Shown: positions 11,845 through 52,048 of the stretch, one piece after another | Numbering within the stretch: position 1 is the stretch's first letter | Layout: every line of letters starts with the position of its first letter | Assembly (NCBI GenBank): GCA_030828385.1 | Contig: JAURCS010000005.1 | Location: 25,412 to 89,411, forward strand | DNA length: 64,000 nt | DNA from: Gammaproteobacteria bacterium | GTDB lineage: Bacteria; Pseudomonadota; Gammaproteobacteria; Pseudomonadales; Pseudohongiellaceae | Reading direction: 5' to 3' | Position numbers and translations under genes: made by a program | The notes under the pieces: generated by a model | Told to the model about the DNA's origin: nothing | The model's input: only the letters and a program-made list of their open reading frames with translations | Databases searched by the model: none

Positions 11845-11857
11845 TTTTTAAAGGGTC

Positions 11858-11882: not shown

Positions 11883-11907
11883 CCCTGGTATCGAATAGAA
11901 CAGAAAG

Positions 11908-11979: not shown

Positions 11980-12004
11980 TTAATAAAATCGTTGGAGTTT
12001 ACAT

Positions 12005-14566: not shown

Positions 14567-14962
14567 ATGCGTCATCGACATAGTGGTCGTCAGCTCAACA
14601 GGAACAGTAGTCATCGTAAAGCGATGTTTCGCAACATGACCAACTCCCTTGTTGAACATGAAATCATCAAAACAACTCTGGCAAAGGCCAAGGAGCTTCG
14701 TGGCTTTGCCGAGCCGCTGATTACCCTGGCTAAAAGCGATAGCGTTGCTAACCGGAGGCTGGCTTTTGACCGCGTTCGCGACAAGGCAACAGTAGGTAAA
14801 TTATTTACTGAGCTTGGACCCCGCTATGTTGAACGTCCAGGTGGCTATGTGCGCATCATTAAATGCGGTTTACGCACTGGTGACAAGGCGCCAATGGCGT
14901 ATGTTGAATTAATCGACAGGCCTGAAGAGGATTTCGATTATGGTGATGCTGAAGAATCCTGA
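14567..14962 (+). CDS. rplQ: Ribosomal protein L17
   Basis: The 131-residue product is a complete L17, found near the exit tunnel. It has [20 protein letters not shown] at the start and [20 protein letters not shown] near the end, with an acidic tail. It is the last gene of the supercluster and is followed after 18 nt by a strong terminator. Confidence 0.97.
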
Positions 14963-14980
14963 TAACTAAAAAGATTCAGT

Positions 14981-15008
14981 AAAAAAAGCCGTTATTTCGG
15001 CTTTTTTT
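14981..15008 (+). terminator. Strong intrinsic terminator after rplQ
   Basis: A7GCCG (14981-14991) pairs with CGGCT7 (14998-15008) around a 6-nt loop, giving an 11-bp stem ending in a seven-T run. The A-run on the other side would also let it act on minus-strand transcripts. Confidence 0.9.
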
Positions 15009-15058
15009 ATTTCCGATATTTCATAATTGATGCTGAGAAAATTTAGCGAGAGTAAATC

Positions 15059-16234: not shown

Positions 16235-16314
16235 GTCGCAAGCCACAAGTCACAAGGATCAGCAAATTACCTGAAACATGGTTTTAACCTGATTTTCTTG
16301 TAACTTGTGACTTG
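16233..16314. repeat. Heptamer-repeat inverted element A
   Basis: The left arm (16233-16256) reads as 7-nt units AAGTCGC, AAGCCAC, AAGTCAC and AAG. The right arm (16297-16314) is the reverse complement of AAGTCAC, AAGTTAC and AAG units. Eighteen bases of the two arms pair with two mismatches that can be wobble pairs. The 40-nt loop holds a small GGTT/AACC hairpin. The same heptamer family recurs at 56241-56377 and 62820-62850. Confidence 0.75.
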
Positions 16315-16328
16315 AATCTGTCCTTCCC

Positions 16329-16357
16329 TTGACAGTGATCACTCCCCCGCGTAAAAC
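16329..16357 (+). promoter_or_regulatory. Sigma-70 promoter of the exported FAH-family gene
   Basis: A perfect TTGACA (16329-16334) is followed after 17 bp by TAAAAC (16352-16357). The spacer contains the palindrome GTGATCAC at its upstream end, a possible operator. The gene starts 46 nt after the -10 box. Confidence 0.65.
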
Positions 16358-16402
16358 TTACTCCCTCTTAAAATTATAAAAACAGAGCAGGGGGGGCTGG
16401 GC

Positions 16403-25308: not shown

Positions 25309-26400
25309 TTAGGTCTGTACTGAGAGCAGGATTTTTTTCATTACATGATCTGGCGAAATGTCTTTCATACAACGATGCTGGTGCAAACAATGACCCTTGT
25401 TACAGGCCGGGTCACAGCTAAAGTCTCCCCGTACAATCTTGCTTTGCTGACCAAGTGGCCCCCAGATTTCATCGTTAGTGGGGCCGAATAATACTAAACC
25501 AGGCAGGCCCAGTGCGGAACCCAGATGGAAAGGCCCGCTGTCGTTGCCTACCATCAAGGCACAGGTATTCATGAACTGTCCCAGTGCCACCAGCGACAGT
25601 CTGTTACACAGATCAAGGGGAAGGGAATCGATGCCCGCCGTTTGCAACTGTCGCGCTATTTCCTGGTTGGCATTTTCATCAACACTTCCTGCACCCAGCA
25701 GCACCGGCTGCAAACCGGCAGCCATTATTTTTTCCACCAGCACAGCCATACTGTCGACTGGCCAGCGTTTATAGTCCTTCGTCGCTCCGGCATGAATGGC
25801 GATGGTTTTTAACTGAGGGTTCCAGCCCCACTCACGTAATTGTCCTGTCAGGGTGTCGGGAAGCGTGCCAGGGTTCATTTTCAAATACGTTTTTTCAGGT
25901 TCCGGCATTCCGAGAGCGTCGAACACATCAAAATAGCTATACCAGCGATGGCTTCGTGCAGGTTCACGGTTTTCAAACTGAACCGGAATTACCGCATCGT
26001 AACCACTGCGATGGCGGGTGGCGCTGCAACCGAGTTTATAGGCGGCCCCGGAAAGTCGGGTCAAATGGTTGGTGGCAGAATCTTCTTCGATATTGAAGGC
26101 AATGTCCGGCTTGAAGGCACGAATCTCCTTCAGACAGGCACGGTACAGGGAGATTTTTTTAAACAGACCAGACTGACTAATTTTCCTGCGTGGGAAAAAG
26201 ATCAGGCTGTCAGCGGGAAAGCTGTTTTCACAAAGTGCGAGAAAGCCTTCATCAATGACAATTTTCAGTTGAATGCCCTGATCCTGGCAGTAGCGGGCAT
26301 AGGCCTGCATCAGGCCGCCCGCCAACAATAAATTGCCCAGGTACTTGGTCGGGTTAACCAGTACTATTCGTTGAGGATTCTTGGGGACAGGTTTATTCAC
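25309..26400 (-). CDS. GT9-family glycosyltransferase (heptosyltransferase-like)
   Basis: The 363-residue product has the two-lobed GT-B layout of family 9: an N-terminal lobe beginning RIVLVNPTKYLGNLLLAGGL and a C-terminal lobe with IAIHAGATKDYKRWPVDSMA and the donor-site MVGNDSGPFHLGSALGLPGL. GT9 enzymes add heptose to the LPS inner core from ADP-heptose on the cytoplasmic face. The C-terminus has a Cys-rich segment (CDPACNKGHCLHQHRC), seen in some members. The start is GTG at 26400, overlapping the upstream phosphatase gene by 8 nt. Confidence 0.82.
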   Translation of the reverse strand: MNKPVPKNPQRIVLVNPTKYLGNLLLAGGLMQAYARYCQDQGIQLKIVIDEGFLALCENSFPADSLIFFPRRKISQSGLFKKISLYRACLKEIRAFKPDIAFNIEEDSATNHLTRLSGAAYKLGCSATRHRSGYDAVIPVQFENREPARSHRWYSYFDVFDALGMPEPEKTYLKMNPGTLPDTLTGQLREWGWNPQLKTIAIHAGATKDYKRWPVDSMAVLVEKIMAAGLQPVLLGAGSVDENANQEIARQLQTAGIDSLPLDLCNRLSLVALGQFMNTCALMVGNDSGPFHLGSALGLPGLVLFGPTNDEIWGPLGQQSKIVRGDFSCDPACNKGHCLHQHRCMKDISPDHVMKKILLSVQT

Positions 26401-27241
26401 TGTCCTGGTAAAGTGCCATCAGTTCACCCACATTGGTAACGGAGATATCCGGCCAGGTTGCCTGCGGTCGGTCATCAAAGGCATTGGGACCGCCGGTACC
26501 GGTATGCACATAAATGGCAAGAGCACCGTTATTTTTTGCCATCGGGACTTCAAGGTCGGCGTCATCACCGACAACGGCGATCTCGCTTACCTCCAGGCCC
26601 AAATGCCGTGCCGCACTTTCAATGGCATGGGAAGAAGGTTTACCAAGCACGATGGCGTCTTTGCCAGTCAAGGGTTTCAATGCCGCCGCCAGCGCGCAGG
26701 AAGTGCCGATGCCGGGACCGTTGGCGGTGGCAAAAAAAGGCACATCGGAGGCGGTATATAATTCTGCACCAGCCTTGATTGCGAGCCAGGCATTCTCTAT
26801 ATCCTTAAAACCAAACTCGCGATACCAGCCAATATAGACGGCGTCGACCGGGCCAGGATTTTCAATACTCGATAACACAACCTCAAGGCCGAGATCAGCC
26901 AGAGGCTCCCACACACCGGGACAGCCCAGCACCATGATGCGTTTGTAGCCTTGCTTGACCAGATAGTCAGCAGCCACGCTGCTGGGGGTCATCATGGTGT
27001 TTTCGTTCATGGGAATGCCTGCATCGCTAAGCACCCTCACATAGTCGGAAGGGGAGCGTGCGGTGCCATTGGTCATCACCACATAGGGAATGCCTTTATC
27101 CTTAAGCAGATTGATAAAATCTGCGGCACCGGGCAGCATCGCCATATTGTTGTTTTTCTTGTCGCCAAGAATCAGTGTGCCATCCATATCGAAAACAAAG
27201 CCCTTCACTCGGGCAAGTTTGTCATTCATTTGATTAGTCAT
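26393..27241 (-). CDS. HAD-superfamily IIA phosphatase (NagD-like)
   Basis: The 282-residue product has the HAD motifs in order: DMDGTL near 19-24, the motif II Thr in VVMTNGTARS, Lys in LGKPSSHAIE and GDDADLEVP. The cap between motifs II and III is the IIA type. NagD relatives dephosphorylate nucleoside monophosphates or sugar phosphates in the cytoplasm. GGAAAAA precedes the ATG. Its overlap with the GT9 gene suggests an operon. Confidence 0.85.
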   Translation of the reverse strand: MTNQMNDKLARVKGFVFDMDGTLILGDKKNNNMAMLPGAADFINLLKDKGIPYVVMTNGTARSPSDYVRVLSDAGIPMNENTMMTPSSVAADYLVKQGYKRIMVLGCPGVWEPLADLGLEVVLSSIENPGPVDAVYIGWYREFGFKDIENAWLAIKAGAELYTASDVPFFATANGPGIGTSCALAAALKPLTGKDAIVLGKPSSHAIESAARHLGLEVSEIAVVGDDADLEVPMAKNNGALAIYVHTGTGGPNAFDDRPQATWPDISVTNVGELMALYQDSE

Positions 27242-32411: not shown

Positions 32412-32858
32412 TTATTGGGGAACCGCGGAATTATGAAACTGGATAATTTTCCAGGTGCCGTTGCGCAGGGCAAGCACCATGCTTACCCGCAGCGGCGTGC
32501 CTTCACTCTGACCGCTCGGAACCACTTCCCACATGCCTGAAATGGCCACCAGATTGTTGCCTATCTCGACACTCTCATAGTCCCGGGCGCGGGCAACAGT
32601 CTGCCCCGGTGGGTTGCGTCCAACCGGTTCAAAATATAAGGCGACTCCTGCCGGATCGGTTACCAGTGATTGCGATCCGGTTCCCCAGAACAGGGCATCT
32701 TCAGAAAACAGACTGGTAACAACTTCCATGTCAGTATTGGTCATGGCATCAAGGAACTGTTCGAATACTGCTGCAGCTTCAACTTCGGCATCACTTTGAG
32801 CCTGTAGTGATGCTGGCAGCCCGAATAACAATAGTATGGACGTGACGAAAATTTTCAT
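32412..32858 (-). CDS. Exported NTF2-like (SnoaL/DUF4440) protein
   Basis: The 148-residue product has a signal peptide (SILLLFGLPASLQAQ) and an NTF2-like cone fold: a helix with AAAVFEQFLDAMTNTDMEVV, then FSEDALFWGTG and a C-terminal RNGTWKIIQFHNSA. Such domains bind or turn over small molecules; the function here is unknown. It starts 4 nt after the stop of the carboxyltransferase gene, so it is very likely co-translated with the carboxylase operon. Confidence 0.78.
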   Translation of the reverse strand: MKIFVTSILLLFGLPASLQAQSDAEVEAAAVFEQFLDAMTNTDMEVVTSLFSEDALFWGTGSQSLVTDPAGVALYFEPVGRNPPGQTVARARDYESVEIGNNLVAISGMWEVVPSGQSEGTPLRVSMVLALRNGTWKIIQFHNSAVPQ

Positions 32859-32862
32859 TGGC

Positions 32863-34332
32863 TTACCGGTTTAATGTTAGTTTGAAGTTTTTCTGACTGA
32901 CAGAAAAATTCGCTGGTGATTTTTTTCCTTTAGCGTGATGCAGTCCTTTCAATAGCTGCAGCACTGGTGAAATGGCCGGGTTGTAGTGGAGATCATCAGG
33001 TGAGCGGGTACGCATGGCATCCACCTGATCTACCGGCATTACTGCGCGCAATAAGAACTCTTCATCAGACATGCGCTTTGAAAACTGCTTGCGTCTGTCC
33101 TTCAGGGTCATGGTGATCGGTTCTTTTTCTATTTCTTTGGTGCGTGGCAGAGACATGATCCGGTCCAGCACATTTTGATCCACTGGTGCCGTGGGGCGTC
33201 CAAAACGTCCCAATACATATCGTATTGCCTGATCCGGTATCTGTTCATAGCGGCCGTCACCCATAACATTGAACATGGCCTGGGTAGTAACGATCTGGGG
33301 AAATGGGGTAACCATAATGGGGGAGCCCAGTTCTGCCCGGACTCGTTCAACTTCCGCCATAACCTCATCAAACTTGTGCTCCAACTTTAACTCAGCCAGT
33401 TGTCTGCGGGTGGTGGTCAATACGCCGCCGGCTACCTGGTGGCGCAGGTAGGAGGCATCGTAGGCCTGAGGTTTACCGACCGCCAGGCCTTCGGCTTTTG
33501 CCAGGCCAAAGTAGTAGTCTTCCAGTTGTTTTAGCGCGGTTTCATTAACATCCACAGTGTGGCCGTGGGTTTTCAGATTGGCAATAGTTTGTGTAGCGCA
33601 GGGTAATGAAGAGCCATGGGCCAGCGGGCCGATCGCCACATGCAGCGCATTAATACCCAGCTCGGCGCCCACCATGTAGTTGAACTGGGACAGGCCAATG
33701 GTGCAATGGGAGTGAAGCTCCAGCGGCAGACTACCGATTTCCTTTTTCACGGCCGGAATCAGGGTACGCGCTCTCTCCGATGTCAGCAGACCTGAAGGAT
33801 CCTTGATATAGAGCAGGTCAAAGTCACCGGATGCCGCAATCTGTCTGGCGCAGTTGGCATAAAAGGCATCATCGTGGACATCGCTCAGGGTATAGGTCAG
33901 CGCCGCCATGTTTTCGGCATCGCCTTCCTCTTTCACAATGCGGGCAACCTGCATCAGGGCATCCATGTCATGCATGGGATCAAGCAGGACAAAGCGGCCG
34001 ATACCGTTTTTCATCAGGGTTCTGTAGGCCAGCCGCATGAAATCATGATCGGCAGTTTCCCAGGAGATAAAACGAAAACCGGTAGAAATAAATTGTAGCG
34101 GTACATTGGGCAGGGCCTGGTGCATCAGACGTATACGTTGCCACGGATCATCCTGGTGATAGCGCACGCCGACCGCCATATGGGTACTGGAAGTAAAGTC
34201 GATGGCACGAAAGCCAACCCGTTCCATCAGCGGCGCCGCCTGCATCATCTGGTGCGTGCCCATACCGGTCATGCTCCACATGCATTGGTTGCCATCGCGG
34301 ATACTGACATCCACCAGTTTTATATCAGCCAT
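32863..34332 (-). CDS. Biotin-dependent carboxyltransferase (pyruvate/oxaloacetate carboxyltransferase-like), divergent
   Basis: The 489-residue product has an HMGL-like TIM barrel (about 1-270) and a PYC_OADA domain (about 290-465), but no biotinyl domain. Asp13, the carboxyl-transfer Lys177 (YIKDPSGLL) and the metal ligands His207 and His209 (ELHSHC) are kept. The pyruvate carboxylase motifs DAHQS, GGATFD and RG-N are replaced by DGNQC, TSSTHMA and STGFRF. This suggests a substrate other than pyruvate, by inference. The ATG at 34332 overlaps the carboxylase gene by 8 nt and follows GGAG; the TTG at 34338 is less likely. Confidence 0.83.
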   Translation of the reverse strand: MADIKLVDVSIRDGNQCMWSMTGMGTHQMMQAAPLMERVGFRAIDFTSSTHMAVGVRYHQDDPWQRIRLMHQALPNVPLQFISTGFRFISWETADHDFMRLAYRTLMKNGIGRFVLLDPMHDMDALMQVARIVKEEGDAENMAALTYTLSDVHDDAFYANCARQIAASGDFDLLYIKDPSGLLTSERARTLIPAVKKEIGSLPLELHSHCTIGLSQFNYMVGAELGINALHVAIGPLAHGSSLPCATQTIANLKTHGHTVDVNETALKQLEDYYFGLAKAEGLAVGKPQAYDASYLRHQVAGGVLTTTRRQLAELKLEHKFDEVMAEVERVRAELGSPIMVTPFPQIVTTQAMFNVMGDGRYEQIPDQAIRYVLGRFGRPTAPVDQNVLDRIMSLPRTKEIEKEPITMTLKDRRKQFSKRMSDEEFLLRAVMPVDQVDAMRTRSPDDLHYNPAISPVLQLLKGLHHAKGKKSPANFSVSQKNFKLTLNR

Positions 34333-35704
34333 TGGCAAGTTCTCCTGCAGGGGTGGTGTCCAGCATTTGCTTTAAAAAACGCGTATCCACACCGCCTTCT
34401 ATAAATTCCCCGGTTGCCAGAATGGCCTGATGTAAAACAATGTTGCTTTCAACCCCTTCAAGATGACATAGCGCCAGCGCATGTTGCAGGCGTACTATCG
34501 CTTCGGTGCGATCCTCGCCCCAGACAATCAGCTTACCAAGCAGGGAATCATAATAAGGTGGTACCGTGACACCGCTTTCTATATGTGTGTCTATTCTGAT
34601 ACCGGGCCCCGCAGGGAATTGTGCTCTGATTACTTTGCCAGGGCTGGGCTGGAAATCATTCTGGCAGTCTTCAGCGTTGATTCGACACTCAATAGCATGA
34701 CCATTGAAAATAATATCACTTTGGCTCATGCCCAGAGGTCGACCTTCGGCGACGCGTATTTGTTGGGCAACAAGATCGAGGCCCGTAATAGCCTCAGTAA
34801 CCGGATGCTCCACCTGGATGCGTGCATTCATTTCCAGAAAATAAAAACTGTTACGCTCGACATCGACCAGAAATTCGACGGTTCCGGCGCCCTGATAGTC
34901 GAGGTGTTGAGCAAACGCTACAGCAGCACTTTGCATTTCTTCGCGCAAGTCATCATTAAGACAGGGGGCCGGTGCTTCTTCCACCAGCTTCTGATAGCGT
35001 CGTTGGATCGAGCAGTCACGGGTGCCGAGATGGATGACCTGCTTGCCATCGCCCAGTACCTGAACTTCCACATGTCGACCACTGGCGACGAAGCATTCCA
35101 GATAGATGCGATCATCATTGAAGGCATTTTCCGCTTCTGCGCGCGCCAGGGTCATGGTTTTTGCCAGATCAGCCACATTATGAACTACCTGCATTCCACG
35201 GCCACCGCCGCCGCCTACGGCTTTGATAAGTACTGGATAACCAATTTCAGCCGCCAGTGGCTCCGCTTCCTGGGGGGTATTCACCGAACCGCCGGGAACG
35301 ATAGGCAGATTGGCCGCTACAGCATTTTCACGCGCTTTGAGTTTGTCACCAATAGCATTGAGCTGGGCTACGGTTGGCCCAATAAAAATAATGTTATTGT
35401 CTGCGCAGGCCTGGGCAAGCGCAGCATTTTCCGAAAGAAAGCCATAGCCCGGATGAATAGCATCAGCCCCGGTCTGCAATGCTGCCTGTAGCACAGCGTT
35501 TACATTCAGATAACTTTGCAGGGAAGGAGGTGGACCAATTTTGATTACCTGATCTGCCATACGGGCAGGGACAGAATCCAGGTCAGCTGCCGATGCCGCC
35601 AGCACAGTTTCAATACCCAGAGTCTGACAGGTTCGAATTATACGAACCGCAATTTCACCGCGGTTCGCTATGAGTAAACGGTTAATCGAGTTCACGGCAG
35701 CCAT
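34325..35704 (-). CDS. Biotin carboxylase subunit (AccC/PycA-like)
   Basis: The 459-residue product is a full biotin carboxylase: NRLLIANRGEIAVRIIRTC at the start, ATP-grasp loop KAVGGGGGRGMQ, LEMNARIQVEHPVTE and the C-terminal domain with ECRINAEDCQNDFQPSPG. It carboxylates biotin with ATP and bicarbonate. Its ATG overlaps the BCCP stop (TGATG, 35704). Lying in an operon with a pyruvate-carboxylase-type transferase, it is more likely part of that enzyme than of acetyl-CoA carboxylase. Confidence 0.92.
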   Translation of the reverse strand: MAAVNSINRLLIANRGEIAVRIIRTCQTLGIETVLAASAADLDSVPARMADQVIKIGPPPSLQSYLNVNAVLQAALQTGADAIHPGYGFLSENAALAQACADNNIIFIGPTVAQLNAIGDKLKARENAVAANLPIVPGGSVNTPQEAEPLAAEIGYPVLIKAVGGGGGRGMQVVHNVADLAKTMTLARAEAENAFNDDRIYLECFVASGRHVEVQVLGDGKQVIHLGTRDCSIQRRYQKLVEEAPAPCLNDDLREEMQSAAVAFAQHLDYQGAGTVEFLVDVERNSFYFLEMNARIQVEHPVTEAITGLDLVAQQIRVAEGRPLGMSQSDIIFNGHAIECRINAEDCQNDFQPSPGKVIRAQFPAGPGIRIDTHIESGVTVPPYYDSLLGKLIVWGEDRTEAIVRLQHALALCHLEGVESNIVLHQAILATGEFIEGGVDTRFLKQMLDTTPAGELANG

Positions 35705-36171
35705 CAAGAGGGTCTGACTCGCATTAACAGTTGCCCTTTTTCAACAAACTGCGCATCTGTAACAAGAATTTCAACGATCTCACCGTTGAGACCGGCAGGA
35801 ATAGAGTTCATCAGTTTCATCACTTCAATGATGGCAATGACACTGTCCTCATTAACATTGGAACCAATTTCGACGAAGGGATCGGCGCCGGGTTTCGGCG
35901 CATTGTAGAAAGTGCCTACCATGGGCGCACGAATATCCAGCAGACCTTCTTCAGTGGCAGCCGTTTCAATGGTGGCGTTCCCGTCGATGCTTGCAACAGT
36001 GCTGGTGACTGCCGACTTGTCGCTTGCCACGGTGTTCATTTGCTGCGTCCAGCCTTCTTCATCCTGCTGTAATTTAAGGGTGAAGTGCTCGGTTTCCAGA
36101 GTCAATTCCCTGTAATCAGTTTCTTCCAGTAAGCGCAGAATTTCCTGTACATCTTTGTGACTTAAACTCAT
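35704..36171 (-). CDS. Biotin carboxyl carrier protein (AccB-like)
   Basis: The 155-residue product has an AccB-type N-terminus (DVQEILRLLEETDYRELTLE), a linker rich in Ala/Thr/Ser, and a biotinyl domain from about 78 with biotinylated Lys119 in IEVMKLMN. It overlaps both neighbours (ATGA with the upstream dikinase gene, TGATG with the carboxylase gene), so four proteins are translationally linked. Confidence 0.92.
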   Translation of the reverse strand: MSLSHKDVQEILRLLEETDYRELTLETEHFTLKLQQDEEGWTQQMNTVASDKSAVTSTVASIDGNATIETAATEEGLLDIRAPMVGTFYNAPKPGADPFVEIGSNVNEDSVIAIIEVMKLMNSIPAGLNGEIVEILVTDAQFVEKGQLLMRVRPS

Positions 36172-37253
36172 TTACTTTTATTGTCCTTGATTAATTGGGA
36201 ACCCATTACGTTGAAAATATGGTCGTAGGCTTTAGCTGCAGGTTTGGCCACAGGTGCCTTGTCTTTTGTTGCCCAAACGGTTTCCGGACGACTCTGGAGT
36301 AGCAATACACTGTTATTTTCATTACCGGCGCTGTCATGGGATATAGCCCATTCAATATCCTGAGCGCAGCCATAGTGTTTTTCCACGCGACGGGCGATTT
36401 CAGTCAGCTCCCTGATTTCCTCATTACTGAGACAGGAAATCACCTGGCGTTCTTCCTCCACTGGCCTTTCAATAATACCGCCTTTCTCATCAGGAAGGTG
36501 CTCGATAGCCTTGGGTGCAATATTTTTGCCGGTAATTTCACTGGTGATCTTGTTGACCACAAATTTGTCCGGAGTTACCTCGCCGCTGACGATGCTGGAA
36601 CCCAGTCCCCAACTGCCTTCAATCGTAACAACAGATTTGTCTCCGCTGGTGGGGCTGCGGGTAAACATGACTCCAGAGCAACGCGAGTTCACCATGGTCT
36701 GCACGACGACGGCCATGGCCAGATCTTCCTCGGGAATATTAAGCCGCAGGCGATAGGCAACAGACTCGGGGTTGTAAAGACTGGCCCAGCAGCGGCGCAC
36801 GGCATCCAGCAGTTGCGCTTCGCCTTTTTGCCATAAGTAGGTGTCCTGTAGTCCGGCAAAACTGGCCTCTTCACTGTCTTCACTGGTCGCGCTGGAACGA
36901 ACGGCTACCGGGATATTATCACCTAGGCCGCGATAGGCATCAGTAATGACTTGAGCCAGGGATTCCGGTGGTGGAGATTTTTCTACCAGGGCGCGCATGT
37001 CACTGGTGACGCTGTTCAGTGTCGTCACATCATCTGGATCCAGCGCAACTATTTTTTGGCGAATACCATATTCCGCATCAATGATGTCCAGATAGGCTTT
37101 AAACGCCTCGGTAGTAATCACATAACCATTCGGTACGTTGATACCGGCACTACATAATTCGCCCAGGCTGCCGCCTTTGCCGCCAACGAGAGGGCGGTCG
37201 GCAAGGGATAGGTCCTTAAACCAAAGAATGGAATTCTGAGTATCTTGTGTCAT
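36168..37253 (-). CDS. ATP-binding half of a split PEP-synthase-like dikinase (phenylphosphate synthase subunit 2-like)
   Basis: The 361-residue product is only the PPDK_N / PEP-synthase ATP-binding module: VGGKGGSLGELCSAGINVPN, PVAVRSSATSEDSEEASFAG, SRCSGVMFTRSPTSGDKSVV and LLLQSRPETVW. It lacks the phosphohistidine and PEP-binding domains, which are supplied by the gene at 38094. This split matches phenylphosphate synthase of Thauera. It would form the pyrophosphoryl donor on the partner's His. The ATG at 37253 is preferred over the open frame to 37310. It overlaps the BCCP gene by 4 nt. Confidence 0.85.
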   Translation of the reverse strand: MTQDTQNSILWFKDLSLADRPLVGGKGGSLGELCSAGINVPNGYVITTEAFKAYLDIIDAEYGIRQKIVALDPDDVTTLNSVTSDMRALVEKSPPPESLAQVITDAYRGLGDNIPVAVRSSATSEDSEEASFAGLQDTYLWQKGEAQLLDAVRRCWASLYNPESVAYRLRLNIPEEDLAMAVVVQTMVNSRCSGVMFTRSPTSGDKSVVTIEGSWGLGSSIVSGEVTPDKFVVNKITSEITGKNIAPKAIEHLPDEKGGIIERPVEEERQVISCLSNEEIRELTEIARRVEKHYGCAQDIEWAISHDSAGNENNSVLLLQSRPETVWATKDKAPVAKPAAKAYDHIFNVMGSQLIKDNKSK

Positions 37254-37388
37254 CTTTTTTATATTTTTTCTGGATGTAAATGGAATTTGCTTCAGTCGAA
37301 AAAGAACCAAATAATATTGTCTACATTAGAACAAAGTTACCTCTATTAAACAAAAAATTTAATAGCCCTCCCGGGTTTATAGTGGCTT

Positions 37389-37831
37389 TCACCTGTTTAT
37401 TCGTAAGGGTAAAGGCGCATTGTGCTTTTGCCGCTGCATGGTCAGCAGGTTTCGGCAACGCACCTGGCACTCATGAATATCCACCGGTTTAACAAGAAAG
37501 TCTGTGGCGCCTGCTTCCAGCGCGTTATACAGTGCTTCCCTGTCTTCCAGTGCGGTTATGATGATGGGGATATCGTTGAATTGGCCGGCAGCACGAACTT
37601 TCTCTATAAATTGTACGCCATCCATGGCCGGCATTTGATAGTCGGTTAAAATCAGATCAGGTTTGCTTGTTTCCGGGGCTTGCAGTGCGGAAATCGCATT
37701 ATCGAAGGACATGACCTAAATCTGCTCATCAATGGTCCTGGCAATGCTCTCCATTATGATGCGGCTGGTAGCCTGGTCATCGATGATGAAAACTATATTT
37801 TTTCGTTTTCCTCACTATGGACTTGGTTCAT
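37389..37831 (-). pseudogene. Response-regulator receiver domain, decayed
   Basis: A CheY-like receiver is readable across three broken pieces. An ATG at 37831 starts MNQVHSEENEK; a six-A run (T6 at 37798-37803) shifts out of frame, and one added A would continue into NIVFIIDDQATSRIIMES. An in-frame TAG at 37716-37718 interrupts before MSFDNAISALQ. The rest has the phosphoacceptor LILTDYQMPAMDG, the ITALEDREA segment and the Lys in FLVKPVD. The tail RNLLTMQRQKH resembles RpfG-type regulators cut before the output domain. It sits between the two halves of the dikinase. Confidence 0.75.
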
Positions 37832-38093
37832 GGGTGTTGTCTCAGAGGCCAGATTTACCTGTCGTGCTTATTTCTCAATTGCGTCCATGCAACGCCTTAT
37901 TTAATGAAAGATTCACTGAAAATCATCAGGTTAACTATTGATTATTGGTATGCGTCTGACTCTCAATCCGCAGTTAAGCTGAGTTTGATCCGCAGCTTCA
38001 GACACTGCTGACGAAACATGCATGAAGCTCTGCGTAATTTACCACAGACGCTTCATACATGAGTGCTTAAAGGCAACAAATTTGACGACAGGT

Positions 38094-39911
38094 TTAACTG
38101 TCAAGAATAGTGACTGTACCAGTATCCCCATCAACTCTGATTTTTTGACCGTCCTTAATGCGCTTGGTGGCTGATCCGGTGCCTACTACCGCTGGCATGC
38201 CGTATTCCCTGGCGACAATTGCCATGTGGGACATGGTGCCGCCTATATCTGATACGGCTGCACTGATTTTGCTGAACAGCGGGCTCCAGCTGGGGTGGGT
38301 AATGGGACATACCAGAATATCGCCTTCGTTGATTGAGCCGAATTCATTGATACTGCGCAGAACTCGAGCAACGCCCTCGACAACACCGGGGGAGGCTGCA
38401 TAGCCAATTATTTCATTTTCGTTCTGTATCGCAGGTGCCGCCCAGTTATTCAGGGTTTCTTTCGTGATACCCCAGAGCATCTGCAGGGCAGGGTCTTCAA
38501 TATTGTCCGGCATTGGCCCGATGGCGGGTGGTGCCTGCCACTCCTTCAATACTTCAAGCATGCGGCGGCGTTCGGTAATGATGGGGGGCCAGTAACCCTG
38601 ATTGACCGGTCTGGAGCCAGCAGCCCAGCTGTTCATCAGGTTGCCTAGAGTGAGGTTAACCTCGGTATGATGCATATGGAAGATATCGTCGCTTTTTTCA
38701 ATAATGCCATGCATGGCAAGTAAATCACCGAATTCACGGATCTTGTTGAAAAAGCTGGTGGTCAACCAGTGCTCACAGTAGAACTTGTGATCTTCCACAT
38801 AGGGAAACACCAGATGGCTTACTCCCAGCATCTGGTCGAAAGCTGCTCTTTCCTCATCAGTGTTTAAAAGATCACGGTATTCAGTAATGATGCGTTCGCG
38901 CTCTGCTTTTAACTGTTCGGTTGGACGTTCCAGGTTATCACCCTGTTTTACCAGTTCAATATAGTGTGGCAGGGCGGACAGTGGTACTGTCAGGTCATCA
39001 TTCCAGCTGCGCTCAAAATGATAGAAGCCATCCCCAATACTGATGTTGAACCAGGGGTCTCTTGATTCAGCAAGGGCATCAAGCCACTCTTTACCGGCGT
39101 CGCCCTTTGCTTTTACCGCAGGCAGGATGACATCCGGATTGCCGTCAGTAGTAAAGACCTCATCGATACCCAGTTTTACCGCCAGTTTGGCCAGTTTCTT
39201 GAGTTCGTCATCGGGCCGGAACATGAGTACATCGATACCGGCGACCATGCGCGCTACTGTTTGATCGGTAATTTCAGGAAAGGCCTGTTTGCAGAACTGG
39301 AAAAAAACAACGTAAGCCCCGTATCCCAACATCAACATTTCGAAATGGTGGTTCCACATGATGGAATATTTTTCCAGCACGTCGTTGTAGGTTTCGCGCA
39401 GGTAGTGATTCTGGGAAATCCCTTTGGCTTCCTTGACCACTGCTTCATCTTCAAATTCTGGTAGCTCGGGAATTTCAATGGCATTCATATCCTTGATGAG
39501 CTGGCCCATACGTTTTTCCCACTGGCCATAGATTTCATTCCAGTTTTCGTAATAGTGCCCAGCCCGTTCCTGGAAAATGCTCAGTCGATGTTGAATTTCT
39601 TCCGGGTCGGTAGCGGTATTGGCCGTAATATAGATGCGTCCATTGATGCAGCGATAGTCAACCCCTTTGCCGGTAGGGAAGGCAAAGACCCGATTCACAA
39701 AAGCGCCCATGGCATGATAGGCGGACTCGGCAGTAATCATGTCAAAGGCTGACATGGGCTCGGAGAAATGCATGGAGTTATAGAACCAGAAACGTTCATC
39801 ATCCTCCGGTTGCACATGGGTGTAGTAGGGGTACATTTCAGCCCAGTTCTCAGCGCCCGGGGCATCTTCTATTTCGCTTGGCATGGGAAAAGGGCTTTTC
39901 TTTTCGCTCAT
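38094..39911 (-). CDS. PEP-utilising half of a split dikinase (phenylphosphate synthase subunit 1-like)
   Basis: The 605-residue product resembles Thauera phenylphosphate synthase protein 1: an N-terminal region with WAEMYPYYTHV and ERFWFYNSMHFSEPMSAFD, and a C-terminal mobile domain with ILVCPITHPSWSPLF and GGTMSHMAIVAREYGMPAVV. His562 in that motif is the expected phosphorylated residue. The family transfers the beta-phosphate of ATP through this His to phenol, or in PEP synthase to pyruvate. It has no ATP-binding domain and should pair with the product of the gene at 36168. The acceptor is unknown here. Confidence 0.83.
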   Translation of the reverse strand: MSEKKSPFPMPSEIEDAPGAENWAEMYPYYTHVQPEDDERFWFYNSMHFSEPMSAFDMITAESAYHAMGAFVNRVFAFPTGKGVDYRCINGRIYITANTATDPEEIQHRLSIFQERAGHYYENWNEIYGQWEKRMGQLIKDMNAIEIPELPEFEDEAVVKEAKGISQNHYLRETYNDVLEKYSIMWNHHFEMLMLGYGAYVVFFQFCKQAFPEITDQTVARMVAGIDVLMFRPDDELKKLAKLAVKLGIDEVFTTDGNPDVILPAVKAKGDAGKEWLDALAESRDPWFNISIGDGFYHFERSWNDDLTVPLSALPHYIELVKQGDNLERPTEQLKAERERIITEYRDLLNTDEERAAFDQMLGVSHLVFPYVEDHKFYCEHWLTTSFFNKIREFGDLLAMHGIIEKSDDIFHMHHTEVNLTLGNLMNSWAAGSRPVNQGYWPPIITERRRMLEVLKEWQAPPAIGPMPDNIEDPALQMLWGITKETLNNWAAPAIQNENEIIGYAASPGVVEGVARVLRSINEFGSINEGDILVCPITHPSWSPLFSKISAAVSDIGGTMSHMAIVAREYGMPAVVGTGSATKRIKDGQKIRVDGDTGTVTILDS

Positions 39912-46336: not shown

Positions 46337-48928
46337 TTATTCGACATTGGCCTGGGCCGCGGCTATTCGGGCGATGGGAATACGGTAGGGACTGCAACTG
46401 ACATAATCCAGACCCAGCTTGTGACAATACTTGATAGAGCGCGGATCACCGCCATGTTCGCCACAAATTCCATACTTGATGCCTTTCTTTTTGCGTTTTG
46501 AATCCTTGATAGCCATTTTCATCAGCTTGCCAATGGCGCGCTGGTCGAGAGAGACAAATGGATCCATCTCGATAATTTTATTGGTCAGGTAAGCAGGAAT
46601 AAATTTCGCCGCATCGTCGCGGGAAAAACCGTAAGTCATTTGCGTCAGATCATTGGTGCCGAAACTCATGAACTCCACATCATTGGCAAGTCGATCGGCG
46701 CCCAGGCAGGCGCGGGGAGTCTCCATCATGGTGCCGATTTTGTAACGAATAGACAGACTTTTTTCCTTCATCACTGACTGAATACCGCGGTCGATGATTT
46801 CACTGATCATGCGGATTTCGCGTACATTCACCACCAGTGGAATCATGATTTCCGGCAGCGGATGACAGCCCTGTTCCTTCGCGGCGAGCGCGGCACTGAT
46901 GATTGCACGCACCTGCATCTCGGTTATCTCCGGGTGCACAATGGACAGACGGCAGCCGCGCAGTCCCAGCATAGGGTTCACTTCTGCCAGATCCCTGATG
47001 GCATTTTTAATCAGCTCCAGCGGCTTGTTGATATGGGCACTCAGGGCAGCGATATCGTCTTCCGTATGCGGCAGGAATTCATGCAGTGGGGGATCCAGCA
47101 GGCGAATGGTGATGGGCTTACCGTCCATGATGCGAAACAGTTCCAGAAAATCGTCATGCTGAAATTTTTCCAGCTGTACCAGATAAGATTCCCGTTCCTC
47201 GCGGGTTTCCGACAGAATCATGCCGCGCATCACATCGATGCGCTCTGCCGCAAAGAACATATGTTCGGTCCGGCACAGACCAATTCCTTCCGCGCCCAAT
47301 TCCAGAGCCTTGGCAGCATCTTCCGGTGTTTCCGCATTGGCACGTACGCTGAGCTTGCGGTACTTGTCTGCCCAGTTCAGCAGGGTCTGGAAATCATCGC
47401 TGGAAGACGCCGCGATTTTAGGTATATCGCCAAGCATGACTTCACCGGCAAGACCGTCCAGGGTGATGATATCTCCACGCTTGATAATCTGGCCTGATGC
47501 TGTGGTAGCTGTGCCCGCTGCAGTATCAATGGTGAGTTTGTTGCAGCCGGTAATAGCGCAGACTCCCATGCCTCTGGCGACCACTGCGGCATGGGAAGTC
47601 ATACCACCGAGCTCGGTGAGGATGCCCTCGGCAACCTTCATGCCATGGATATCTTCCGGTGTGGTTTCCCGTCTCACCAGTATTACCTTGTCGCCTTTAG
47701 CGGCTTCCTGCACTGCCTCGTCCGCAGAAAAGACCACGGCCCCGGTAGCACCACCGGGACTGGCGGGCAGGCCACTGGCAATAATGTCTTTCTTGCCCTG
47801 TGGGTCGACCATGGGATGAAGAAAAGCTTCCACATGTTCCGGTGATACTCTGAGCAGGGCTTCCTTATCAGTTATCAGCCCTTCCTTGACCATCTCCACG
47901 GCAATCTTGACGGAAGCACGTCCCGTGCGTTTACCACTGCGCGTTTGCAGAATATAAAAACGCCCTTCCTGAATGGTGAACTCAATGTCCTGCATATCCC
48001 GGTAGTGGTTTTCCAGCAGTAACTGGGTGTCAAACAGTTGCTGGTATACATCGGGCATTTGATCTTTTAGGGCATCAATGGGCAGGGGAGTGCGGATTCC
48101 GGACACCACATCCTCGCCAGCGGCGTTGAAAAGGAACTCGCCAAAAAACAGTTTCTCACCGTTGGACGGGTTCCGGGTAAACGCGACACCGGAACCGGAA
48201 TCATCACCAAAATTGCCATAAACCATGGACTGGATATTGACCGCGGTGCCCAGTGATTCAGGGATATTATTCATTTCCCTATAGACGTTGGCGCGGGGTG
48301 TATGCCAGGACTGGAACACCGCTTCCACAGCCAGTAACAATTGCCGGAAGGGATCCTGGGGCAGGTCCACCAGCTGCTTGAAATGGTCGATAACCCGCTG
48401 CCAGTCCTCGGCTTCCATCTCGATATCCAGCGACTTGTTGTTTTCCTTTTTGTAGTCATCAATGGCCTGTTCAAATTGTGCCCCGTCCACTCCAAGTACC
48501 ACATTGGCAAACATCTGGATGAAGCGACGGTAGCAGTCATAGGCAAAGCGCGGATTCCCTGTTTTACGCGCCAGGCCTTCGACGATGTCATCGTTAAGAC
48601 CAAGATTGAGTACCGTATCCATCATTCCCGGCATGGACACTGGTGCCCCGGAGCGCACTGACAGTAACAAGGGATTGTCGGGATCACCGAAATGGGAGCC
48701 CATTTTTTGTTCTACAAGATCCAGCGCAACACGGTATTCCTGTTCCAGTCGGTTTGGTAACTTGTTGCCGTTGGCAAAAAATTCGCGGCAGGTATCGGTG
48801 GTAATAATAAAACCAAAAGGCACAGGCAGGCCGAGGTTGGTCATCTCGCAGAGATTGGCACCCTTGCCGCCCAGCAAGTCCTGATCGTCCTTGTGGCCTT
48901 CATTAAAAAGATAAACACGCTTAGCCAT
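46337..48928 (-). CDS. ppdK: Pyruvate, phosphate dikinase
   Basis: The 863-residue product is a complete PPDK: ATP-grasp domain (LLGGKGANLCEMTNLGLPVP; LLSVRSGAPVSMPGMMDTVL), phosphohistidine domain (ELGGMTSHAAVVARGMGVCA) and PEP/pyruvate barrel (LGAEGIGLCRTEHMFF; GICGEHGGDP). It interconverts pyruvate + ATP + Pi with PEP + AMP + PPi. Together with the pyrophosphatase at 28.9 kb it could favour gluconeogenesis. It is distinct from the split dikinase at 36-40 kb, which is not a duplicate of it. Confidence 0.96.
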   Translation of the reverse strand: MAKRVYLFNEGHKDDQDLLGGKGANLCEMTNLGLPVPFGFIITTDTCREFFANGNKLPNRLEQEYRVALDLVEQKMGSHFGDPDNPLLLSVRSGAPVSMPGMMDTVLNLGLNDDIVEGLARKTGNPRFAYDCYRRFIQMFANVVLGVDGAQFEQAIDDYKKENNKSLDIEMEAEDWQRVIDHFKQLVDLPQDPFRQLLLAVEAVFQSWHTPRANVYREMNNIPESLGTAVNIQSMVYGNFGDDSGSGVAFTRNPSNGEKLFFGEFLFNAAGEDVVSGIRTPLPIDALKDQMPDVYQQLFDTQLLLENHYRDMQDIEFTIQEGRFYILQTRSGKRTGRASVKIAVEMVKEGLITDKEALLRVSPEHVEAFLHPMVDPQGKKDIIASGLPASPGGATGAVVFSADEAVQEAAKGDKVILVRRETTPEDIHGMKVAEGILTELGGMTSHAAVVARGMGVCAITGCNKLTIDTAAGTATTASGQIIKRGDIITLDGLAGEVMLGDIPKIAASSSDDFQTLLNWADKYRKLSVRANAETPEDAAKALELGAEGIGLCRTEHMFFAAERIDVMRGMILSETREERESYLVQLEKFQHDDFLELFRIMDGKPITIRLLDPPLHEFLPHTEDDIAALSAHINKPLELIKNAIRDLAEVNPMLGLRGCRLSIVHPEITEMQVRAIISAALAAKEQGCHPLPEIMIPLVVNVREIRMISEIIDRGIQSVMKEKSLSIRYKIGTMMETPRACLGADRLANDVEFMSFGTNDLTQMTYGFSRDDAAKFIPAYLTNKIIEMDPFVSLDQRAIGKLMKMAIKDSKRKKKGIKYGICGEHGGDPRSIKYCHKLGLDYVSCSPYRIPIARIAAAQANVE

Positions 48929-49090: not shown

Positions 49091-50089
49091 TCAGGGATTA
49101 ATCACGGTTCGAAACCCGATATGAGAAGTGCCGAGACCTTTTCCCTGCGCCTGTCTGGCTTCCGGTCGGTAACGCATGCAGTAATTGGGCGCGCACAGAT
49201 AAGAGCCGCCTTTGATAACGGCTACCGGCTCACCGGGCTGATTTGGATCATAGCCTTGCGGATATTTTTCCTTGTCGAGGAAGGCATGGCTTGAAAACCA
49301 GGGCGTTTCAGTCCATTCCCAGACGTTTCCGATAAGGTCATAAAGACCGAATTCATTGGCGCTATAGCAGCCCACCGGTGCGGTGCCGACAAAACCGTCC
49401 TGAGTGTCATGCTGAAAAGGGAACAGGCCCTGCCAGGTATTGGACTGGTAAGTGCCTGCCAGGTCCCGGCGCAGACTGCTTTGCGCGGCAAATTCAAACT
49501 GGGCCTCTGTTGGCAGAGCATGGCCTGCCCATTGCGCATAGGCCTGCGCATCTTCATAGGCGATATGCACCACTGGATGATTTTCCCTGCCGTGAATACT
49601 CGAGCCGGGACCTTCCGGTTGTTGCCAGTTGGCATCGGCCATGAATTGCCACCAGCTGGCAAAGGGGTTCACCGGCTCATCACTGACATGGGGGGCAAAC
49701 ACCGCAGAACCGGGAATCAGTTCACCATTGGCAGGATTCTCAATCCCCCTTTCAGCCAGCGTGAGGTAGTTGGTAGCACTGACAAATTCAGCAAACTGGG
49801 CGTTGGTGACTTCATGTTGTCCGATCCAGAAGCCTGCCACCGAAGTTTCAAAGGCCGGGCCTTCTTCAAAATAAGTGCCTTCAGCACCCATGATAAAATT
49901 TCCCCCCGGAACCCAGACCATGCCGGGATAGGGAGAGTCGGTAACCGGGATGTCGCTACATTGCAGAGCGAGGACATCGAGATCATTGCCGGGTCGCGGA
50001 AGGGTAGCGGCTCCCCAGCCGAGAACGGCAAGGATTCCTGCACCGCCGACAGCCAGACCAATAAAGAGTCCTTTATTCCGGGTAGACAT
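49091..50089 (-). CDS. Membrane-anchored formylglycine-generating enzyme
   Basis: The 332-residue product has an N-terminal membrane segment (LFIGLAVGGAGILAVLGWG) and a full FGE-sulfatase domain: PGMVWVPGGNFIMGAEG, EVTNAQFAEFV, LPTEAQFEFAAQ, LIGNVWEWT and GGSYLCAPNYCMRYRPEAR. Cys299 and Cys304, with 5-residue spacing, match the catalytic pair of aerobic FGE. It would convert the sulfatase Cys to formylglycine using O2. Its start overlaps the 3' end of the sulfatase gene by 17 nt, so the two are a matched pair. The anchor suggests action at the membrane or in the periplasm. Confidence 0.88.
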   Translation of the reverse strand: MSTRNKGLFIGLAVGGAGILAVLGWGAATLPRPGNDLDVLALQCSDIPVTDSPYPGMVWVPGGNFIMGAEGTYFEEGPAFETSVAGFWIGQHEVTNAQFAEFVSATNYLTLAERGIENPANGELIPGSAVFAPHVSDEPVNPFASWWQFMADANWQQPEGPGSSIHGRENHPVVHIAYEDAQAYAQWAGHALPTEAQFEFAAQSSLRRDLAGTYQSNTWQGLFPFQHDTQDGFVGTAPVGCYSANEFGLYDLIGNVWEWTETPWFSSHAFLDKEKYPQGYDPNQPGEPVAVIKGGSYLCAPNYCMRYRPEARQAQGKGLGTSHIGFRTVINP

Positions 50090-51737
50090 AAATTAAACCG
50101 TTTTCCTCTTCATAACGTTCCCAGTTCTCAATCATTTGTGCCAGCTTGTCTGGTAATTCCGTACCCAGATCGATCTGTTCATTGGGATCTTCGGCTAGAT
50201 TGAAAAGCATCCAATGGGCGTCCTCGCGGGCAGCAAGGTCCCAGACAATTTTCCAGTCACCCTGACGCACGGCGCGATGGCCATTAAGTTCCCAGCCGAC
50301 GATTTCCTCTTCAGAATGGACCTCATCCACTTCGCCGGTAATCATCGGCAGCAGTGATTTTCCTTTTATCGGTAGAATATCCCTGCCATTAAAAGACGTA
50401 CCCGGGTGCTGAGTGCCAGCCAGGGCAAGAAAGGTAGGCATAACGTCCATGACCGTTCCAAAACCATCGGCCTGGGTACCGCCATCAATCATGGAGGGGT
50501 AGTGAACAAATGCCGGTACATGAATCCCCCCTTCAAAAGCCGTGGCTTTGTGACGACGAAATCGGGTTTCACTCACTGTTGCCCAGTTGCGCCCATACAT
50601 TACGTAGGAAGTCGGGCTACCGAGATTGTCGACGGTCTGATCATAATATTCTGGCGTGATGACATTCTGAAAACGCGGGCTCAAGTCGAGACGACTGGAT
50701 TCAGCACCATTGTCAGACATGAACATGATGAACGTATTGTCGTATTGTCCTGTTTCTTTCAGGTAGTTAATTACCTGGCCAACATAGGTATCCAGTTCGC
50801 TGACCATGGCAGCATAGACTTCCATACGTTTGGCAGACAGGGCTTTTTCCTCATCACTTTGTTCGTCCCAGCGGGGCGAAAAAACCTCCAGCGGCATGGG
50901 TTCAGCATCCGCAGGAATATGACCCAGTGCCTGCATACTGGCGAAACGTCGCTGGTAGATGGTTTCATAACCTTCATCATAAGTGCCTTTAAATCGCGCG
51001 ATGACATCCGCAGGTGCCTGCAGGGGCCAGTGCGGTGCGGTGTAGGCAAGATAGGCAAAGAACGGTTTATTTTCATCCCGGTCTTCCTCAATGTACTCAA
51101 TCATTTTCTGTGTGTAATCTCGGGTGGTATACCAGTCATCATCCACCTGAACCAATTCATCGCCATCACGATAATTGGCATTTTGCGGACCACGCCAGTC
51201 CCAGGGGCCCAGATGGGCTGCACCATCCAGGGAAACGAAGTTTTTCTTGAAACCGCGGGCATGGGCACCATTTTCCACATCAGAACCCAGATGCCATTTA
51301 CCGGTCATATAGGTGTTATAACCGGCATCGGTCATCAGTTCCGCCAGGCTGGCCACGCGAAAACTCAGATAGCCCAGATAGTTGGGCTGATTCATGTGTC
51401 GGGGATTGGAAGGTGCGCTCTGAACACCGACACCTGCCATATGATTATCAGTACCGGACATCAGCATGGAGCGGGTGGGGCCACAAGTCAGGCTGCTGAA
51501 AAAGTCTGTCAGCAGCATTCCGTTGGCTGCCAGCGCATCAATGTTTGGTGTCGGTATTTCGCTGCCATAGAAACCAAGGTCGGCATACCCCAGATCATCA
51601 GCAACAATGAGCAGAATGTTGGGCCGCGTATCAACTGATACTTCAGTAGCTTCTGATACGTTCTGTTCCCCACTGCACGCCTGTAATAACAGAAAAGTCA
51701 GGATACAAAAGAGATGGTGGCGTAAGGTGATTGGCAT
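50073..51737 (-). CDS. Lipoprotein arylsulfatase (Cys-type)
   Basis: The 554-residue product has a lipoprotein signal (FCILTFLLLQAC, lipidated Cys21) and a type I sulfatase domain with metal site PNILLIVADDLGYADLG (Asp47, Asp48) and the C-x-P-x-R motif LTCGPTRSML (Cys85, to become formylglycine). YMTGKWHLG and MFMSDNGAESS are further family motifs. It hydrolyses sulfate esters at the cell surface or in the periplasm. The ATG at 51737 follows AGGGG; the frame is open to 51764. The substrate class cannot be fixed. Confidence 0.9.
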   Translation of the reverse strand: MPITLRHHLFCILTFLLLQACSGEQNVSEATEVSVDTRPNILLIVADDLGYADLGFYGSEIPTPNIDALAANGMLLTDFFSSLTCGPTRSMLMSGTDNHMAGVGVQSAPSNPRHMNQPNYLGYLSFRVASLAELMTDAGYNTYMTGKWHLGSDVENGAHARGFKKNFVSLDGAAHLGPWDWRGPQNANYRDGDELVQVDDDWYTTRDYTQKMIEYIEEDRDENKPFFAYLAYTAPHWPLQAPADVIARFKGTYDEGYETIYQRRFASMQALGHIPADAEPMPLEVFSPRWDEQSDEEKALSAKRMEVYAAMVSELDTYVGQVINYLKETGQYDNTFIMFMSDNGAESSRLDLSPRFQNVITPEYYDQTVDNLGSPTSYVMYGRNWATVSETRFRRHKATAFEGGIHVPAFVHYPSMIDGGTQADGFGTVMDVMPTFLALAGTQHPGTSFNGRDILPIKGKSLLPMITGEVDEVHSEEEIVGWELNGHRAVRQGDWKIVWDLAAREDAHWMLFNLAEDPNEQIDLGTELPDKLAQMIENWERYEEENGLIYVYPE

Positions 51738-52048
51738 AGTTACCCCTATGTGACTAATTAGCATCTTTTAATTTTTTTTCGTGTTATCTGCTGGTGAGTT
51801 TTTCAAGTTACTCTCAACAACTGAATAGCAGGCTGATGGATTTGCTGCACACGCCGGGAATTTTTCTTCAGCGCCTGGTGCCTCGCTGGCAGCCTGAACA
51901 TATAGTGCGCTTAATACTACTTAGATAGATAACGGAAGGCAAAATAGCCGCCGCCTTTACCCCCGCTCAGGAATTACCTAGCATGCCTTGAAAATCCTTC
52001 AGATACCGTCTACCTTCTCACTCTGTTAATCACTTCCCAGATCCTGTC
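51738..52048. other. Divergent intergenic region, no gene
   Basis: This 311-nt gap lies between the leftward sulfatase operon and the rightward peptide transporter. A TTGAAA-17-TACCTT arrangement near 51988-52016 is a weak plus-strand promoter candidate. There is a T8 run near 51772-51779. No ORF, strong hairpin or repeat was found. Confidence 0.4.

Follow-up and report, generated by a model that had tools for sequence, protein, structure and literature searches.

What would a bacterium do with a dikinase split over two genes and a three-subunit biotin-dependent carboxylase encoded in the same operon, and on which compound would these enzymes act? This question is raised by a locus on contig JAURCS010000005.1 (assembly GCA_030828385.1) from a gammaproteobacterium of the family Pseudohongiellaceae, which was analyzed within a whole stretch of 64,000 nucleotides, hereafter the window. 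A first-pass annotation had likened the dikinase to phenylphosphate synthase, had proposed that kinase and carboxylase work together on one compound or on related ones, and had stated that no described system with this gene set was known. Such systems have been described, namely the Hpe pathway in Rhodococcus and the Acv pathway in Sphingobium (PMC9618137, PMC12167813, and PMC13101465, each cited here for the passages available from it). Judged from its gene content and the relationships of its enzymes, the locus is most probably a chromosomal catabolic operon of this Hpe/Acv type for hydroxyphenyl ketones, a pathway type that is already known from a few other bacteria, and hydroxyphenyl ketones of the lignin-released kind are the most likely growth substrate.

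In the Hpe pathway, it has been reported that HpeHI phosphorylates acetovanillone and 4-hydroxyacetophenone, that HpeCBA carboxylates the phosphorylated ketones only, and that HpeD removes the phosphate from the carboxylated product (PMC9618137). The acvABCDEF genes of Sphingobium SYK-6 are stated to be homologous and syntenous to the hpe genes (PMC9618137). Three such pathways, with MarK among the enzymes mentioned, have since been compared, and growth on these ketones was reported for four strains only (PMC13101465). Among the matches listed for hydroxyphenylethanone in the marine literature, nothing relevant was found beyond the three papers already cited.

Gene Content and Relation to Known Pathways

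The operon is encoded on the minus strand and comprises genes for an HpeH/AcvA-like large kinase subunit (H, 605 residues, 38094-39911), with a helical substrate domain resembling that of rifampin phosphotransferase (RPH) and a phosphohistidine swivel domain bearing His562; an HpeI/AcvB-like ATP-grasp kinase subunit (I, 361 residues, 36168-37253; Pfam PPDK_N); an HpeC-like biotin carboxyl carrier protein (BCCP, 155 residues, 35704-36171; Biotin_lipoyl); a biotin carboxylase subunit (BC, 460 residues, 34325-35707; Biotin_carb_N/CPSase_L_D2/Biotin_carb_C); and a carboxyltransferase of the putative phospho-hydroxyphenylketone type (CT, 491 residues, 32863-34338; HMGL-like and PYC_OADA). These coordinates, the strand, the descriptions, and His562 agree with what the first-pass annotation had given, as judged from the open reading frames and Pfam. 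So do the tight junctions, the overlaps from the I gene to CT amounting to 4, 4 (1 with an ATG start), and 8 (14 with a TTG start) nt and the gap between CT and the following NTF2-like gene to 4 nt. A sixth gene, missing from the annotation, lies at 26393-27241 on the same strand and encodes an HpeD/AcvF-like phosphatase of the HAD family (282 residues), recognized by its homology to the HAD gene of related loci.

The plasmid of Rhodococcus sp. JS3073 was taken as a real hpe reference operon because its I subunit is 97% identical to 9GOJ, the structure of HpeI (PMC12167813). Its gene order is H, I, BCCP, BC, CT, HAD, acetoacetate-CoA-ligase-like gene, and amidohydrolase. With the Hpe system of Rhodococcus rhodochrous GD02 (HpeHI, HpeCBA, HpeD, HpeE, and HpeF), the window shares the two-component dikinase, the three-subunit biotin carboxylase, and the HAD phosphatase, and with the JS3073 operon the H-I-BCCP-BC-CT order, the CT clade, and the TGxRF signature; the RPH-like fold of H repeats what has been given for HpeH (PMC12167813). 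Identities to the JS3073 proteins are nevertheless just 45% (H), 46% (I), 49% (BC), 43% (CT), and 33% (HAD), and the window differs in its H clade, in the absence of HpeF from the genus, in a phosphatase gene placed 5.2 kb away, and in the remnant of a response regulator lying between H and I. HpeE and HpeF are not encoded in the window operon, an HpeE-like ligase being found elsewhere in the genome; since the Acv cluster likewise has no HpeE/HpeF counterparts (PMC13101465), this excludes the eight-gene GD02 form only. As described, the Acv system of Sphingobium lignivorans SYK-6 (AcvABCDEF) consists of six kinase, carboxylase, and phosphatase genes and, like the window operon, does not include the genes for the last steps, which lie at other sites (PMC9618137; PMC13101465). 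The MarK-type pathway of Novosphingobium aromaticivorans has the same carboxylase stage with a single-component kinase of another family (PMC13101465), whereas PpsAB of Thauera and Azoarcus and CreHI share the two-component phenolic dikinase architecture but belong to other clades and are partnered by Ppc (UbiD-type) or a P450 where the window has a biotin carboxylase.

In the JS3073 operon (L130:15489-18460), homology identifies the second carboxylase gene (49.5 kDa) as BC and the third (57.5 kDa) as CT, in agreement with the published masses of HpeB and HpeA. Table 1 of PMC9618137, in which HpeB is the carboxyltransferase and HpeA the biotin carboxylase, thus looks interchanged.

The Carboxylase

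The predicted structure of CT (pLDDT 86) has the pyruvate carboxylase/transcarboxylase 5S fold (TMq 0.81 to 1rqb), and the protein keeps Asp15, Gln18, Lys179, and the His209/His211 pair in common with pyruvate carboxylase subunit B and transcarboxylase 5S. It departs from them in its clade and at one position: the arginine of the pyruvate-type RGQN motif, which we take to bind pyruvate, is replaced by Thr86 in ISTGFR, with Arg89 three residues on (TGFRF signature). Threonine occupies this column in 68 of 71 CT rows (the window and 70 loci), including the CTs of Rhodococcus Hpe and of plasmids from Pseudomonas putida YC-AE1, Sphingomonas bisphenolicum, and Novosphingobium humi; arginine is found in the other three (L138 to L140, other carboxylases) and in 3/3 PDB references. 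In a tree of 32 hand-picked rows from these 71 and three PDB chains, the window protein falls into a 29-row clade (support 100/100) in which the Rhodococcus Hpe CT is nested. Because this clade mixes window-type, Hpe, and plasmid CTs, one class of carboxylated substrate is suggested. Its sequence makes the carboxylase appear unlike the usual pyruvate enzymes; pyruvate carboxylase and oxaloacetate decarboxylase were rejected on Thr86 and the separate CT clade, and the acetyl-CoA carboxylase of the cell on a CT of PYC/OADA rather than AccA/AccD type. Another accC-like gene, 49% identical and with one stop in frame, is present on contig C112 of the window's own genome (G000).

The TGxRF signature offers a simple test for separating these carboxylases from pyruvate enzymes. 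It is useful because current annotation names do not tell the two apart: in annotated plasmid records, the parts are named PEP-utilizing enzyme, acetyl-CoA carboxylase, and biotin carboxyl carrier protein. Bisphenol A yields 4-hydroxyacetophenone. The plasmids of P. putida YC-AE1, S. bisphenolicum, and S. yanoikuyae encode CTs 58-61% identical to that of the window, together with a HAD phosphatase, and YC-AE1 is a bisphenol A degrader according to the title of PMC9733184.

At four loci on plasmids of P. putida YC-AE1 and of sphingomonads, the place of the HpeHI-type kinase beside the same carboxylase and HAD genes is taken by a Tm-1-like protein, which Pfam assigns to UPF0261 in L133 (L132:10972-12204, L133:10886-12133, L141:2972-4204, and L134, about 10989-12176). 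It is perhaps a single-component kinase of the MarK type, in which case UPF0261 would gain a function; MarK is not mentioned in the available passages of PMC11837543. A plasmid of Rhodococcus oxybenzonivorans (L138:240-8175) encodes a 579-residue one-chain kinase (PPDK_N and swivel domain, no PEP-binding domain) ahead of BCCP, BC, and a CT that keeps the arginine, followed by an OB-fold protein, a thiolase, and a tyrosine-phosphatase-like protein, and may represent a distinct though related route of phosphorylation and carboxylation.

The Two-Component Kinase

In H, Pfam detects the PEP-utilizers swivel domain alone, and neither kinase half contains a PEP/pyruvate-binding domain (PEP-utilizers_C), which the window's one-chain pyruvate phosphate dikinase (PPDK) does. 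The motif around His562 reads SDIGGTMSH and places Met560 where this PPDK has a threonine; phenolic kinases have a methionine two residues ahead of the catalytic histidine (PMC12167813). H also exceeds the cut-offs of NCBIfam NF006153 and NF006151, both named just "hypothetical protein." Its AlphaFold2 model (pLDDT 88, pTM 0.88) aligns along its whole length with six RPH entries (TMq 0.42-0.61, identity about 18%), as against a weak match to PPDK (TMq about 0.15-0.16). The substrate and swivel domains of RPH fold like H, RPH being a single chain. For the I subunit, the best solved chain is 9GOJ (8e-85), to which it is 46% identical by tblastn.

Phylogenetic analysis of the I subunit, based on 33 hand-picked rows out of 86 and 9GOJ, recovered a window clade of 25 rows (100/99) that forms a group (98/91) together with HpeI and one row from Thermomicrobium, with PpsB and the Cre-type rows outside ("Cre-type" is our own term for L135 and L136, Rhodococcus loci linked to a P450); a group formed by the window clade and HpeI alone gave p 0.248 in the AU test. 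The H trees were built from 48 and 34 hand-picked rows out of 96, L043 (27% identical, long branch) being dropped from the second, and the window clade again holds 25 rows (100/99), apart from HpeH, the Pps clade, and the Cre-type rows. The large subunit is thus outside the Pps clade, as far as these alignments go, and, with its clade apart from HpeH, it is better called HpeH-like than an HpeH orthologue. The phenylphosphate-synthase-like dikinase of the first-pass annotation stands as a split kinase of the phenolic type, and the proposal that it and the carboxylase share a compound, or act on related ones, is likewise supported.

The window kinase clade may possibly be a separate branch of two-component dikinases, joined to the phospho-ketone carboxylase independently of HpeHI and serving another natural substrate, a scenario that we regard as tentative. 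It would make the pathway modular, a conserved carboxylase being combined with exchangeable kinases and phosphatases (HAD or metallophosphoesterase). Three kinds of kinase are seen with this carboxylase: HpeHI-type, window-type, and UPF0261/Tm-1-like.

The Phosphatase

In related loci, the HAD phosphatase is the conserved sixth gene after CT, as in genome G001 of the window's genus (g1), where it directly follows CT (locus L051, HAD 16281-17123, CT 14778-16235). It is found in 7/7 g1 genomes and in none of the seven other genomes examined, namely five of genus g8 and the two holding loci L054 and L055. A metallophosphoesterase gene lies directly after CT in L055, L058, and L059 and close by on the opposite strand in L053 and L054; of the g8 loci, only L053, L058, and L059 extend beyond CT, and all three have it. 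HAD phosphatase and metallophosphoesterase therefore seem to stand in for each other, and this difference between sister genera offers a natural experiment on whether the pathway requires dephosphorylation.

Distribution Among Related Genomes

The gene arrangement is not a matter of chance, since a full-length H homologue occurs in 11 of 58 close genomes, own included (7/7 g1 and 4/5 g8), and is followed by the I gene in 10 of these 11. The whole cassette (H, I, BCCP, BC, and CT) is present in six of the seven g1 genomes (the window, L048, L050, L051, L052, and L056). Wider surveys used a threshold of E <= 1e-40. In the class draw, 5/369 genomes were positive, own included; G071 and G177 belong to the Pps clade, G148 gave a 27% match, and G388 (68%, one stop in frame) has the cassette. 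In the phylum draw, 4/398 genomes were positive, again own included, and the other three all have I, BCCP, CT, and HAD.

A contig scan gave 427 matching stretches, 392 of them relatives, and the best 80 were compared as loci; as they are the best 80 of 392 only, the counts favor near relatives. By record titles, they come from Pseudomonadota, Actinomycetota, and Acidobacteriota. Their flanking genes were found by targeted tblastn, and the 63 loci with at least 4.6 kb downstream of H were counted, 17/80 being set aside. I, BCCP, and CT were each found in 57 of the 63 and BC in 46; I, BCCP, and CT occur together in 55, and all four genes in 45. Co-occurrence outside this genome, on which the first-pass annotation had staked its proposal, is thus borne out. 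I or CT is not next to the best H copy at seven loci (L074, L085, L095, L096, L099, L101, and L108). HAD directly follows CT at 46/63 loci, and a HAD or metallophosphoesterase gene accompanies CT in 54/57; the loci with CT and no phosphatase in reach are L052, L065, and L107, and the genome of L052 (G004) has a HAD gene on another contig. HpeE- or HpeF-like genes occur at 35 of the 80 loci, HpeE-like ones (at least 38% over 350 residues, which may include plain acetoacetate-CoA ligases) at 29 and HpeF-like ones (45% over 180 residues) at 13.

It has been reported that kinase and carboxylase genes are clustered in only 52 of 836 cases (PMC13101465), to be set against the H gene and phosphatase in 7/7 g1 genomes, the cassette in 6/7, and I, BCCP, and CT beside the kinase at 55/63 near relatives in three phyla, a population that differs from the 836 of that study. 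Collectively, the H clade of its own, the phosphatase difference between sister genera, and the wide taxonomic spread of near relatives are informative rather than very surprising.

At 11 of the 57 loci with CT, no BC was found before CT (L065, L066, L068, L100, L106, L107, L110, L112, L114, L117, and L119), and BC would need to be supplied from another source, perhaps the AccC of the cell. In Actinomycetota, L074, L096, L098, and L099 have two divergent H genes close by, facing away from each other, and in L074 and L099 the cassette accompanies one only. The metagenome-assembled genome of L053 is labelled Klebsiella pneumoniae, but its cassette clusters with those of uncultured Gammaproteobacteria in all three trees (H, I, and CT), and this label is probably wrong.

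Proposed Pathway and Downstream Capacity

A mechanism can be proposed in which the first three steps would follow those demonstrated by others for homologous enzymes. The I subunit would present ATP, and His562 of H would carry the phosphoryl group to the phenolic hydroxyl of a 4-hydroxyphenyl methyl ketone of the 4-hydroxyacetophenone or acetovanillone class. BCCP, BC, and CT would then add CO2 to the methyl carbon of the phosphorylated ketone, and the HAD phosphatase would take the phosphate off to leave a 4-hydroxyphenyl beta-ketopropionate. For the fourth step, we infer a CoA ligase, for which the homologue on contig C58 of G000 is the candidate, and a beta-keto cleaving enzyme, together yielding 4-hydroxybenzoate, which would reach central metabolism through PobA and a LigAB-like 4,5-dioxygenase. 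The substrate in this organism is likewise inferred, and 4-hydroxyacetophenone itself is slightly favored as the main one.

Gene content, clade membership, signature residues, and the phosphatase are read directly from the sequence, as are PobA and the LigAB-like pair. PobA exceeds its cut-off in all 14 genomes examined, G000 included (C113:5768-6931). A LigA-like and a LigB-like gene form a pair on contig C118 of G000; both products pass Pfam, and the LigB-like one passes class III extradiol models. Genome G006 has a pair of this kind at a distance of about 8 kb from its pobA. Protocatechuate 3,4-dioxygenase exceeds its cut-off in 0/12 genomes. The C58 gene encodes an HpeE-like acetoacetate-CoA-ligase homologue, around which no ring-cleaving or Hpe-type family was found in seven other proteins scanned (four with NCBIfam, three with Pfam). 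An HpeF homologue is found in 3/5 g8 genomes. Next to pobA on C113 (L170:4717-5699), two adjoining frames match halves of subclass B3-like metallo-beta-lactamase models, far under the cut-offs.

Alternative Readings

Several observations weigh against an Hpe/Acv-type operon. HpeH falls outside the window's clade in the H tree, a joint grouping being not rejected (AU p 0.108), and H, at 45% identity to HpeH, is hardly closer to it than to a PpsA-like protein of Azoarcus KH32C (44%); the trees were built without the SYK-6 and EbN1 sequences. The RPH match of the H model has a large root-mean-square deviation (6.8-14 A), CT residues 89-94, next to Thr86, are modeled at pLDDT below 50, and the roles given to the CT residues are assumed ones. 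BCCP and BC exceed the NCBIfam cut-offs for acetyl-CoA carboxylase subunits (126 vs 115 and 623 vs 597 bits), so that these two proteins alone are not diagnostic. In the window, the HAD gene lies away from the operon, 5.2 kb downstream of the NTF2-like gene. Genome G003 is an exception to the conserved arrangement, with no I gene beside H on its 3.7-kb contig: the 823 nt past the response-regulator remnant (L049:2839-3661) match neither the I gene nor any other locus compared, so this operon is interrupted or the contig misassembled. Downstream, the LigA-like subunit scores 112 and 79 bits with protocatechuate 4,5-dioxygenase models whose cut-offs are 161 and 108.6 bits, and an HpeF homologue and a BKACE match are each found in 0/7 g1 genomes, so that BKACE is not supported as the last enzyme in this genus. 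Finally, PobA and the acetoacetate-CoA-ligase homologue also occur in G028, which belongs to g8 and lacks the cassette; these two are thus permissive for the pathway and not specific to it.

The alternative that survives best keeps the chemistry and changes the natural substrate to a phenolic or enolic ketone beyond acetovanillone and 4-hydroxyacetophenone, e.g., an aryl ketone of larger size or a phenolic compound from algae. The separate 25-row H clade speaks for it and leaves it conceivable, if not favored, against three other observations: the CT clade mixes the window-type enzymes with those of Rhodococcus Hpe, P. putida YC-AE1, and the sphingomonad plasmids; HpeE- or HpeF-like genes adjoin many window-clade cassettes, as in Hpe; and, when placed in another host, the SYK-6 pathway shows a preference that does not track that of its kinase (PMC13101465).

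A pyruvate node, i.e., a split PEP synthase with a three-subunit pyruvate carboxylase, had been offered in the first-pass annotation as the simpler solution and is now very improbable, as it fails on both enzymes. The CT fold would suit it, and I matches PEP-synthase N-terminal models with 331 bits, under their 598-bit cut-off. H, however, is RPH-like and without the substrate domain of PEP synthases, neither half has a PEP/pyruvate-binding domain, Met560 and Thr86 replace the threonine of the PPDK and the pyruvate arginine, and a phosphatase is co-conserved. Moreover, the window already encodes a one-chain PPDK at 46337-48928 (TIGR01828, 1323 bits vs a cut-off of 843), an enzyme rightly recognized in the first-pass annotation.

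A phenylphosphate synthase acting on phenol in the manner of Thauera, the strict sense of the original comparison, has the same two-subunit architecture and the 44% identity of H to the Azoarcus KH32C protein in its favor, and is equally hard to sustain. H and I lie outside the Pps clade in their trees, and PpcA/B genes are near 0/63 loci, as compared with two of three other Pps-clade loci (L177 and L178, with none at L179); no Ppc genes were found among 28 window proteins scanned with Pfam, nor any Cre-type P450 at the 63 loci. Besides, the carboxylase is of the biotin type with a phosphatase of its own, while phenylphosphate carboxylase itself releases the phosphate (PMC9618137). RPH itself was rejected, H and I reaching 119.5 and 269.5 bits against the 999 cut-off of the equivalog model NF041857, in two chains.

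Other Features of the Locus

The H and I genes are separated by 840 nt that contain, on the minus strand, a response-regulator receiver remnant identified by Pfam (37389-37712 and just upstream), with an in-frame stop read just before the open reading frame listed at these positions. The remnant has a 91% match in G003 and none in G002, the H of which is 99.7% identical, or in L050, L051, L052, L053, and L056. The NTF2-like gene (SnoaL by Pfam, 148 residues, minus strand, 32412-32858), the product of which was described as exported in the first-pass annotation, is a doubtful part of the operon, because a homologue occurs at only three of the 80 related loci (L048, L052, and L056), and these three belong to g1. 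At 49091-51764 of the window, the minus strand carries adjacent genes for a sulfatase and an FGE-type sulfatase-modifying factor.

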